Virus record (IMG/VR): IMGVR_UViG_3300008266_008973
Coordinates: 1-23,881 of that record
Direction: 5' to 3' (one strand)
DNA from: a virus
Length of the DNA: 23,881 nt
Shown: positions 2 to 5,621 of the stretch, piece after piece
How the letters are laid out: every line of letters begins with the position of its first letter
Position numbering within the stretch: position 1 is the stretch's first letter
Position numbers and translations under genes: made by a program
The notes under the pieces: generated by a model
Told to the model about the DNA's origin: nothing
Databases searched by the model: none
What the model saw: the letters and a program-made list of their open reading frames with translations, nothing else

Positions 2-826
2 GTGTGCGCCGTCGAGTGGAACGCCTACGCCGCAGGCGTACTCGTCGCACGGCAAAATGACGGACTTCTCCCGCCTTTCCCGATTTGGGATGACGTGCAG
101 TCCTTTGACGGACGCCCATGGCGAGGCCGTGTTGACGTGGTTTCAGGCGGCTTTCCCTGTCAGGACATCAGCGTTGCAGGCAAAGGCGCAGGGCTCGACG
201 GAGAACGCTCCGGCATGTGGCGGCACATGGCGCGGATCGTTCGCGAGGTGGAGCCCCGATACGTCTTCGTGGAAAACTCGCCAGCCCTCACTTTTCGAGG
301 ACTCGACCGAGTGCTCGGTGACTTGGCCACGATGGGGTACGATGCGCGATGGGGCGTGCTCGGAGCGGACGACGCCGGTGCCCCGCACAAGCGCGAACGG
401 ATCTGGATTGTGGCCGACGCCAGTCGCCGATGGCGACCGAGCGACCAACTATGCGCAAGGCGGGACGAGCCTTGGGTTTGCGGTGAGAAACTGGCCGACG
501 CCAACCAGCCAAGGGCACGATGCGGGCGGAACAGACCCGAGGCGCAGCCTTTACACGGCTGTCAGGGCAGTGTGGCCGACGCCGACAGCAAGCGACGGAG
601 TGGGCGGCGGGGCGCAGTGGTCGAAAACGCAGATGACGTTGACGACCGCCGTGCTTGCGCCAAACGGCGTTCGCTTGGAGGAAACGCGTGGTGGAGCACT
701 GAACCCGACGTGGGTCGAGTGGCTCATGGGGTGGCCGCTCGAGTGGACCGCCTTCGCGCCATTGGAAACGGACAGGTTCCAGCAGTGGCGGCGCTCGCAT
801 GGCAAATTCTGAGCGAGGAACCATGA
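2..826 (+). CDS. dcm: C5-cytosine DNA methyltransferase (Dcm-like), 5' truncated
   Basis: Transfers a methyl group from S-adenosylmethionine to C5 of cytosine in DNA, probably protecting phage DNA from host restriction. Visible motifs, numbered from the GTG at 2, are motif IV GGFPCQDIS (catalytic Cys53), GAGLDGERSGMW (64-73), motif VI VFVENSP (88-94), motif VIII HKRERIW (129-135) and motif X RAIGNGQVP (252-260). Between motifs VIII and X lies a low-homology stretch with repeated ADA/ADAN/ADAD triplets, where the target-recognition region should be. The N-terminal SAM-binding FxGxGG motif I is absent, so the gene almost certainly starts before the window and the GTG at 2 is only the first in-frame codon. 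The stop overlaps the next start (ATGA at 823-826). A second long ORF runs through most of the same DNA in another frame. Confidence 0.93.
   Translation: MCAVEWNAYAAGVLVARQNDGLLPPFPIWDDVQSFDGRPWRGRVDVVSGGFPCQDISVAGKGAGLDGERSGMWRHMARIVREVEPRYVFVENSPALTFRGLDRVLGDLATMGYDARWGVLGADDAGAPHKRERIWIVADASRRWRPSDQLCARRDEPWVCGEKLADANQPRARCGRNRPEAQPLHGCQGSVADADSKRRSGRRGAVVENADDVDDRRACAKRRSLGGNAWWSTEPDVGRVAHGVAARVDRLRAIGNGQVPAVAALAWQILSEEP
57..812 (+). CDS. Overlapping-frame phage protein with WPTP repeats, embedded in the methyltransferase gene
   Basis: A 251-residue ORF from ATG 57 lies entirely inside the methyltransferase gene in another + frame. It does not read like a random shadow. It has LSRFGMTCSPL near the N-terminus, PRWGTMRDGACSE at about 91-103, three WPTP motifs (119-122, 146-149, 173-176) and a C-terminal block LNPTWVEWLMGWP (215-227). 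From memory, these features match a conserved phage protein family found next to or overlapping dcm-type genes, but no search was run here. Each WPTP falls on the DNA that encodes VADA or LADA in the methyltransferase frame, so both products constrain the same bases. Function is unknown; a role linked to methylation or anti-restriction is only inferred from position. No clear Shine-Dalgarno precedes ATG 57. The alternative is an unusually clean shadow ORF. Confidence 0.66.
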   Translation: MTDFSRLSRFGMTCSPLTDAHGEAVLTWFQAAFPVRTSALQAKAQGSTENAPACGGTWRGSFARWSPDTSSWKTRQPSLFEDSTECSVTWPRWGTMRDGACSERTTPVPRTSANGSGLWPTPVADGDRATNYAQGGTSLGFAVRNWPTPTSQGHDAGGTDPRRSLYTAVRAVWPTPTASDGVGGGAQWSKTQMTLTTAVLAPNGVRLEETRGGALNPTWVEWLMGWPLEWTAFAPLETDRFQQWRRSHGKF

Positions 827-3362: not shown

Positions 3363-4009
3363 CGCGCCGCATTCTCGCCGAGGATATTCACGTACCGAGC
3401 TTCGCGCACGACGTGCCAGGCGGCTACCCGGTGCAGGTCGAGACGAGCCCCGGCCTCGGCTGGGACATGGTGATCCACGTCTTCGGGCCGCACATGTCGA
3501 GCCCGCGTCCGCGCGTCACGAGCCGCGGCACGTTCATGCCGGCCGACTATCGCAAGCACTGCGAACGGCTGGGCGCCTCGCTGGCCTACGCTCGCGGACT
3601 GGTCGAGGCCGATGGCCTGCGATGGCGCTCCGATGCGCCCATGCGCCTCGACCTGGCCTTTTGGGGCGAGCGCCAGTGCGGCGACCTCGACAACCTGAGC
3701 AAGACCGTGATGGACGCCGGCCAGCTTCACCGCGGCGAAAAGCCCGGCGCCGAGCTCTGGGCGAACGACCGGCAGATCCGAAGCCTCTCGGTGGACTGGA
3801 TCGACGTGGAGGATGACGCAGCATGGTGCCAGCTCGTCATTCGGGTGCGCATGCTCCAGACCAGGGAGGCAGACATACCGATTGCCGCCGCCAGGATGAC
3901 CCGTAAACGCGTCGTTGAGGCGCGGACTGGCGACGACCCGCCGAAGCGCGCAAAGGCCCAGGAAGGCGCCACCAAGGCGCGGCAACGCACGCGCAAGGGA
4001 AAAGCCTAG
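3359..4009 (+). CDS. RusA-like Holliday junction resolvase
   Basis: A 216-residue endonuclease predicted to cut four-way DNA junctions made during phage recombination and replication. The RusA signature GDLDNLSKTVMDA is at 108-120, followed by LWANDRQI (133-140). The acidic residues Asp109, Asp111 and Asp137 correspond in pattern to the metal-binding Asp triad of E. coli RusA, with a slightly longer insertion between them here. Residues 32-62 form a beta-rich start with GPHMSSPRPR. The C-terminal 40 residues are Lys/Arg-rich and probably contact DNA, an extension beyond the usual RusA length of about 120-140. ATG 3359 is coupled to the preceding stop. Confidence 0.88.
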   Translation: MTRRILAEDIHVPSFAHDVPGGYPVQVETSPGLGWDMVIHVFGPHMSSPRPRVTSRGTFMPADYRKHCERLGASLAYARGLVEADGLRWRSDAPMRLDLAFWGERQCGDLDNLSKTVMDAGQLHRGEKPGAELWANDRQIRSLSVDWIDVEDDAAWCQLVIRVRMLQTREADIPIAAARMTRKRVVEARTGDDPPKRAKAQEGATKARQRTRKGKA

Positions 4010-4446
4010 TGCGCCCAGCGGTCAACATCACGGGCCAGCGGTTCGGGCGCCTGACGGCGTGCGAGCGCGCGCCTACGCCGCGCACCGACACGAAGAAGAA
4101 CGCATGGTGGGAGTGCGTGTGCGAGTGCGGCGAGCGCGTGAAGGTGCGAGCAACGCACCTGCGGGCGAAGCAAGTGCGCTCGTGCGGGTGCATGCGCCGC
4201 GAAGACCTATGGGGCCAGCGGTTCGGGCGCCTGGTGGTCGAAGACCTGGCGGCCGAGAAGGACGAGCGAGGAGGCCGGCCGTGGATCTGCCGATGCGATT
4301 GTGGCGCCGTCGTGCGTCGCAGCGGTTGGCAGCTCACGAGCAAGGACACCACGTCGTGCGGGTGCGCGATGCGCGACGCGCAAGCATCGTTCGGCCGCAG
4401 GTCAAACGGTGCTATCCGAAGGGCAAGGACATGCCCGAGCCCATGA
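4009..4446 (+). CDS. Tandem-duplicated Cys-rich phage DNA-binding-type protein
   Basis: A 145-residue protein from GTG 4009, which overlaps the resolvase stop (TAGTG). It contains two copies of the same domain. Copy 1 is residues 8-61 (TGQRFGRLTACER, then CVCECG, then SCGC) and copy 2 is 68-119 (WGQRFGRLVVEDL, CRCDCG, SCGC). From memory, this GQRFGRLtV...CxCDCG...SCGC block is common in small phage proteins and in the N-terminal parts of some HNH/AP2-type proteins, and is probably zinc-binding. No HNH nuclease motif is seen. A DNA-binding or regulatory role is inferred. The last 25 residues are Arg-rich and partly overlap the next ORF. Confidence 0.75.
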   Translation: MRPAVNITGQRFGRLTACERAPTPRTDTKKNAWWECVCECGERVKVRATHLRAKQVRSCGCMRREDLWGQRFGRLVVEDLAAEKDERGGRPWICRCDCGAVVRRSGWQLTSKDTTSCGCAMRDAQASFGRRSNGAIRRARTCPSP

Positions 4447-4937: not shown

Positions 4938-5168
4938 CCAACCTTCAACCGGAGTGGGTTTTTGCGAGCTGTGCGAGCGAAAACTAGGCGGGTCCGGGCC
5001 GGCTATGAGGCCCGGAAGCCTTCGATCGAATGAGAAGCGCGCACGCGCGCGAAGCAAGAACGCTCACGGTTCGGAGCGCGTGTCAAGCGTCAAGTTTTCG
5101 ACTTGTGGAAAGCTCAAGGGAAGAGTACGAACAAATCGACCTCACCAGCTCCGAGGAGACCGCCCAGC
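4938..5168. other. Mostly non-coding gap before the terminase genes
   Basis: About 230 bp with no convincing gene, the largest gap in the window. It holds a perfect 8-bp hairpin (4993-5016), a 5-bp inverted repeat (5091-5095 with 5101-5105) and GC-alternating tracts around 5037-5052. It separates the replication module from packaging. A packaging site, a late promoter or a leader RNA are all possible; none can be assigned from a recognisable consensus. Confidence 0.45.
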
Positions 5169-5223
5169 ATGGCACGCCCTTCACTGTTCACGCCCGAGCG
5201 AGTCGCGACGATTCTCGACCTGA
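4954..5223 (+). CDS. Doubtful small ORF with a CxxC motif
   Basis: An 89-residue ORF from GTG 4954 begins with VGFCELCERKLGGSG, which looks protein-like, and then becomes very basic (KRARARSK). It has a lone later Cys (STCGK) and overlaps the small terminase by 55 bases in another frame. No usable Shine-Dalgarno precedes it. It may be a fourth small zinc-type protein or only an open stretch in a non-coding gap. Confidence 0.22.
   Translation: MGFCELCERKLGGSGPAMRPGSLRSNEKRARARSKNAHGSERVSSVKFSTCGKLKGRVRTNRPHQLRGDRPAWHALHCSRPSESRRFST
4993..5016 (+). promoter_or_regulatory. Perfect 8-bp GC hairpin upstream of the terminase genes
   Basis: TCCGGGCC at 4993-5000 pairs exactly with GGCCCGGA at 5009-5016 across an 8-nt loop. 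No T-run follows, so it is not a canonical intrinsic terminator. It could still slow or end transcription, or serve as a protein-binding site. Confidence 0.4.
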
Positions 5224-5621
5224 TTCGGCAGGGCAACACGAGGCGATGCGCTGCGGAGGCCTGCGGCGTAGCGTATAACACGCTGCGTAATTGGGCACGC
5301 CTGGGGCGCAACGGCGACCCGGCGTTTGCGTCATTTTGGACGGAGCTTGTAAAGGCCGAAGCAGAGGCCGAGGCCTGGCACGTCGCGAACATCAAGCGGC
5401 ACGCCGAGACCATGTTCGCGGCGAGCGCGTGGTGGCTGGAACGGGTGCGTTACAAGACCTACGGCAAGCGAGATGTGAGCTACGAGCGCGAGCGGCGCAT
5501 GGAGCGCATGGCGAGCAAGATGCAGCTCGAGGAGATCCCGCTGGCAGACCTTGAGGCCATGGTCGCAGCGGAGAAGCGACGGCGAGGCATCCCCCTCGAC
5601 GTGCCGGCGGCCGTTCAGTGA
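5169..5621 (+). CDS. terS: Terminase small subunit-like protein
   Basis: A 150-residue protein predicted to recognise phage DNA for packaging and hand it to the large subunit. ATG 5169 is chosen for the GAGGAGA Shine-Dalgarno nine bases upstream. Residues 8-42 form a helix-turn-helix (TPERVATILDLIRQGN, then AAEACGVAYNTLRNWARLG), followed by a helical section with FASFWTELVKAEAEAEAW (54-70), which is the usual layout of phage small terminases. The rest (95-145) is charged and helical, suited to oligomer formation. The large subunit lies about 400 bp downstream. The stop overlaps the next start (GTGA at 5618-5621). A general HTH regulator is the alternative. Confidence 0.8.
   Translation: MARPSLFTPERVATILDLIRQGNTRRCAAEACGVAYNTLRNWARLGRNGDPAFASFWTELVKAEAEAEAWHVANIKRHAETMFAASAWWLERVRYKTYGKRDVSYERERRMERMASKMQLEEIPLADLEAMVAAEKRRRGIPLDVPAAVQ

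Follow-up and report, generated by a model that had tools for sequence, protein, structure and literature searches.

In the two-polypeptide m5C methyltransferase M.EcoHK31I, the gene for the smaller chain lies inside the gene for the larger one, in another frame. The larger chain of this enzyme (YGGCCR; Lee, Kam and Shaw 1995) carries motifs I to VIII and X, the smaller chain carries motif IX, and the recognition domain was predicted to lie in the larger subunit (PMC3404938). M.AquI is also divided, into an alpha subunit with motifs I to VIII and a beta subunit with part of the variable region and motifs IX and X (PMC3404938).

The DNA analyzed here, referred to as the window, is the whole 23,881-nucleotide stretch of IMG/VR virus record IMGVR_UViG_3300008266_008973. 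At its left end, two frames on the + strand, M and W, are open over the same DNA, with W in the +1 frame relative to M. Comparison with related loci makes it quite likely that M and W are subunits of a single m5C DNA methyltransferase, an orphan phage enzyme encoded in two frames of the same DNA.

Layout and homology of the two frames

M (positions 2 to 826, 274 codons) carries motifs I to VIII and X of a C5 cytosine DNA methyltransferase and is the putative large, catalytic subunit. W (3 to 812) is a second protein, a member of phrog_1008, with a predicted recognition region and motif IX. In relatives, the starts of both genes lie further upstream, so the window copies are truncated by the left window edge, with about 70 nt of the 5' part of M lost. 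The initial annotation began W at the ATG of a 251-codon ORF (57 to 812). That start was rejected; no stop separates it from the left edge, and relatives begin about 40 codons earlier.

The motifs first reported for both frames are all present. M has FPCQ (152 to 163), VENSP (269 to 283), HKRERIW (386 to 406), and motif X, GNGQVP (764 to 781), which is conserved in loci with both frames. In W, SRFGMT (78 to 95) lies in an N-terminal domain (57 to 422) that is overprinted on the M motifs, has a fold without known match, is less constrained than M, and contains a core of about 70 residues (WSPDTSSWKT..TWPRWGTM, 249 to 344). Three WPTP repeats with a period of 81 nt follow in the recognition zone (411 to 584, at positions 411, 492, and 573), each on DNA that M reads as VADA, LADA, and VADA (at 410, 491, and 572). 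A motif IX-like segment of W, LNPTWVEWLMGWP (699 to 737), is read in the M frame as EPDVGRVAHGVAARV.

M matched PF00145 (E = 3.7e-25) over residues 3 to 138 only and phrog_363 with an E value of 1e-57. The PF00145 match, the catalytic PCQ, and an ENSP-type motif VI identify M as a C5 methyltransferase, and it departs from the usual, though not universal, pattern of a single chain that also holds the recognition domain and motif IX, being unconstrained between motifs VIII and X. An AlphaFold model of M from the close relative L007 matched only the large domain of M.HhaI and M.HaeIII, with residues 171 to 262 predicted to be disordered and no small domain. W matched phrog_1008 (E = 1.2e-34); Pfam and NCBIfam contained no model for it, and a PDB profile search gave no match. 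Modeled as a single chain, W had a mean pLDDT of 55.9 and no confident fold, and this low-confidence model resembled no PDB structure.

The identity of the C-terminal part of W comes from other enzymes. In Mycobacterium phage Rita gp76, which is one polypeptide, the M profile aligned to residues 1 to 162 and the W profile to residues 200 to 355 (W probability 97.4), and phrog_1008 covered residues 196 to 388. The last stretch of gp76 aligned to W is a motif-IX-like segment immediately ahead of motif X, and the LNPxWVEWLMGWP stretch of W aligns to the segment between the gp76 repeats and motif X. At four further loci (L179, L207, L203, and L169), M ends after motif VIII, and motifs IX and X follow each other in the W frame. 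Because of the gp76 alignment and the W frame of these four loci, the C-terminal part of W is read as a recognition region plus motif IX; by sequence comparison, its homologue in single-frame methyltransferases is the half that carries recognition and motif IX.

No cognate restriction gene was recognized beside M and W in the window, where the neighbors are replication, RusA-like, HNH, and packaging genes. An HNH endonuclease-like ORF (phrog_374, 4009 to 4446) lies upstream of the terminase small subunit gene (5103 to 5621), and short repeats (gtgagctca and acaag runs, 1410 to 1500) lie within a replication initiation ORF (1112 to 1786).

Selection on the two frames

W is under selection, and the proof is comparative. 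In the window alone (65% G+C), synonymous shuffling of M showed the open W frame to be only mildly unexpected (P = 0.04). Across the best 80 IMG/VR loci, ABMM1, and the window, no W-frame stop was found, against an expected median of 4.5 per locus. In 60 loci found with W, some of them picked by the WVEWLMGW pattern, 0 stops were observed versus 290 expected from the shuffling. Ascertainment bias from W-based searching was checked with 13 loci retrieved by M only, and these agreed, with 1 stop observed versus 57 expected (N region, 1 versus 30.7; middle, 0 versus 13.0; C region, 0 versus 8.9). The third frame had overall more stops than shuffling predicted, and the W core profile score exceeded all 30 synonymous shuffles in 60 of 60 window-type loci.

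Substitutions show where each frame is constrained. Over motifs I to VIII, M was strongly and W moderately constrained; in uncorrected pairwise counts among loci that share ancestry, W gave an NN/NS of 0.63 (0.53 to 0.73) and, from small SS site counts, an SN/SS of 0.36 (0.30 to 0.45), compared with 1.40 and 0.81 in the third-frame control, which was unconstrained. In the recognition zone, from motif VIII to motif X, constraint fell on W alone (NN/NS of 0.22 for W, NN/SN of 1.57 for M, by the same counts). The 1,032 differences among 45 independent pairs in this region were distributed 664/204/164 over M codon positions 1/2/3, M position 1 being the wobble (third) position of W, and the window's own pair (L006/L007) showed 17, 7, and 1. 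Over the C-terminal 30 codons, both frames were constrained about equally (0.17 to 0.19 for W, 0.22 to 0.25 for M). Purifying selection in the recognition zone thus acts in the W frame and not in the M frame, as expected from the initial annotation's suggestion that W shapes the methyltransferase repeats. Its claim of two real proteins in different frames was correct and understated, with W stops absent across loci and both frames constrained.

W also has a conserved start. In 174 of 184 relative loci, an ATG or GTG for W occurs 4 nt after the first codon of M, in the pattern xTG-A-ATG. Where the codon after the M first codon specifies Asn, it is AAT in 151 of 151 cases, compared with 36% AAT elsewhere in the same genes, and this choice creates the ATG of W. 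The M first codon was ATG in only 86 of 184 loci and was something other than ATG, GTG, or TTG in 32. By a loose test run without a shuffle control, a Shine-Dalgarno-like 4-mer was present upstream in 150 of the 184 loci. Closely spaced starts in two frames are used by E. coli ribosomes (PMC9841429). In actinophage split genes (L316 to L344), GTG and ATG are interchangeable in the W frame at a fixed site about 176 to 179 nt before the M stop (SVPK/SMPK), which is likely a start codon.

Distribution and variant loci

Searches with W (tblastn) matched 114 phage records at an E value of 1e-5 and 208 at 1e-3, including phages of Acinetobacter, Salmonella, Pseudomonas, Streptomyces, Mycobacterium, and Paenibacillus. 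Homologues were present in at least 599 IMG/VR stretches, on a Leptospira plasmid, in E. coli chromosomes reached via a Salmonella phage locus, and in contigs from bacteria and archaea (archaeal MAGs) of many phyla. In a frame-by-frame profile survey, both frames were complete in 187 of 212 locus records, with some contigs counted twice and a few of the 187 having a single stop in one frame, and the relative frame was the same throughout. Retrieval by the W core alone recovered both proteins in 70 of 80 loci. The core was not found outside the M overlap, with 80 of 80 core-found loci on the M domain and one exception cut by the contig end, so the N-terminal domain looks overprinted. Lack of homologues outside the overlap was one of two outcomes that the initial annotation had set against its own proposal, and it holds for this N-terminal part; the other, constraint confined to the methyltransferase frame, does not hold, both frames being constrained, and the proposal is not refuted.

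Existing annotations of these loci vary. Pseudomonas phage phPA-G (L126, 1378 to 2103) has the W frame only, as a hypothetical protein; Paenibacillus phage DevRi (L127, 1306 to 2010) has both nested frames called methyltransferase; and many other records have M only. In a prophage copy from E. coli PCP07014 (L298, 2001 to 2762), labeled a pseudogene, both frames have stops next to each other at a single site. An earlier phage description of the overlap was not found in the openly licensed literature.

In a minority of loci, the 3' module has moved into other frames. A one-base shift, common to several independent contigs (L110, L117, L118, L119, L125, L241, L249, and L281), fuses the N-terminal part of W to the motif X end of M and leaves motif IX in the third frame. 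At L112, L120, and L254, the M catalytic part shares an ORF with the C-terminal part of W (recognition and motif IX), and motif X is in the third frame; L123 is similar, with only the first part of the M catalytic part fused. These four are possibly natural frame-swap chimeras or decayed copies. In single-ORF actinophage methyltransferases (L299 to L314; L213, 1414 to 2580), a W core of the form YDPDTSSWK..TWPxSGM occurs in the +1 frame and scores above all synonymous shuffles. The M codons across the W core of Rita include CGA and ATA.

A proposed methyltransferase divided between two frames

In the proposed enzyme, M would contribute the AdoMet-binding and catalytic motifs I to VIII plus motif X, and its stretch between motifs VIII and X would be a passive linker that need only stay open. 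W would contribute the target-recognition region with the WPTP repeats and motif IX; the N-terminal domain ahead of these appears to have arisen by overprinting of the older catalytic gene and probably serves to dock W onto M. One Shine-Dalgarno region would guide ribosomes to the starts of both proteins, which lie in tandem 4 nt apart. We infer that the two products are translated and form an active complex, an orphan enzyme methylating the phage's own DNA. Its most likely use is protection from host restriction, given that no cognate restriction gene was recognized nearby. Two points count against a simple two-subunit reading. The recognition domain of M.EcoHK31I was placed in the larger subunit (PMC3404938), opposite to the division seen here. 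The W core is also kept in 20 single-ORF methyltransferases that have motifs IX and X in their own frame, and W must therefore do more than supply motif IX. The chances are about even that these loci represent a very widespread, obligately dual-coded class of orphan m5C enzymes, with catalysis in one frame, recognition and motif IX in the other, and tandem starts, in which the W core has a further function such as assembly, activity control, or specificity switching.

The retention of the core at loci with a complete single-ORF methyltransferase, and the lack of any solved structure resembling W, could also mean that W is an independent protein (for example, a regulator, an anti-restriction factor, or a DNA-binding partner) that merely overlaps a methyltransferase. 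This is unlikely, given that W was not found without an overlapping methyltransferase, that the homologue of its C-terminal part is the recognition/motif-IX half of such enzymes, and that M constraint is lost exactly where W supplies the region. Neither an independent role of W by itself nor the anti-restriction role first suggested for it is supported; W is better read as the missing part (recognition and motif IX) of the same enzyme.

Slightly less probable again is a single polypeptide made by ribosomal frameshifting, starting in M and shifting +1 into W after motif VIII to join catalysis to recognition and motif IX. Enzymes of the Rita type do have that order in a single ORF, and the N-terminal part of M is fused to the C-terminal part of W in one ORF at L112, L120, L254, and L123. 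However, W has its own highly conserved start, its N-terminal domain is constrained over the catalytic motifs and would be needless in a frameshift product, and motif X in M at window-type loci would demand two shifts. By eye, the M stop of actinophage split loci shows neither an evident slippery site nor a conserved stop context. The possibility that W is a shadow, held open and similar by chance through the codon usage and protein sequence of M, is consistent with the window's own P value and with the survival of half of the W-core profile score under synonymous shuffling (55 of 110 bits), but it is scarcely credible beside the missing stops, the substitution classes with their third-frame control, and the invariant AAT at the W start, and is refuted by the W-wobble pattern of the recognition zone, barring misaligned loci.

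A two-subunit enzyme would explain why some phage C5 methyltransferases carry two annotations, others one, and others one in the alternative frame, and would mean that the apparent recognition domain of the enzymes annotated in the M frame is probably not real. To our knowledge, proof that two selected genes overlap almost completely over a long stretch of the same strand is rare outside small viruses. The hundreds of diverged copies examined here show base by base which frame selection protects, with catalysis in one, recognition in the other, and both at the end. This extends an arrangement known from one described enzyme to a common type retained in phages and across many bacterial phyla. 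It also provides a naturally split methyltransferase in which the recognition subunit might be exchangeable.

In PHROGs, phrog_1008 (W) and phrog_363 (M) are both labeled DNA methyltransferase and treated as separate proteins, with their overlap and division of labor unstated. Rita gp76 has, in one frame and one chain, an N-terminal half that resembles M, then LPTP repeats, a motif-IX-like segment, and motif X, yet the W core is still conserved in its +1 frame. A split between motifs VIII and IX like that of M.AquI is found at L179, L207, L203, L169, and actinophage pairs such as Euratis gp33/gp34, whereas the window M retains motif X and its frame overlaps that of W almost completely. The initial annotation regarded a role of W in methylation as new, and M.EcoHK31I is a published precedent for the arrangement (PMC3404938). 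Compared by published motif description, M likewise has motifs I to VIII and X, with motif IX on a second polypeptide, W. Unlike M.EcoHK31I, the window has no restriction gene recognized beside M and W, and its recognition zone is constrained in the W frame only, not in the large chain.
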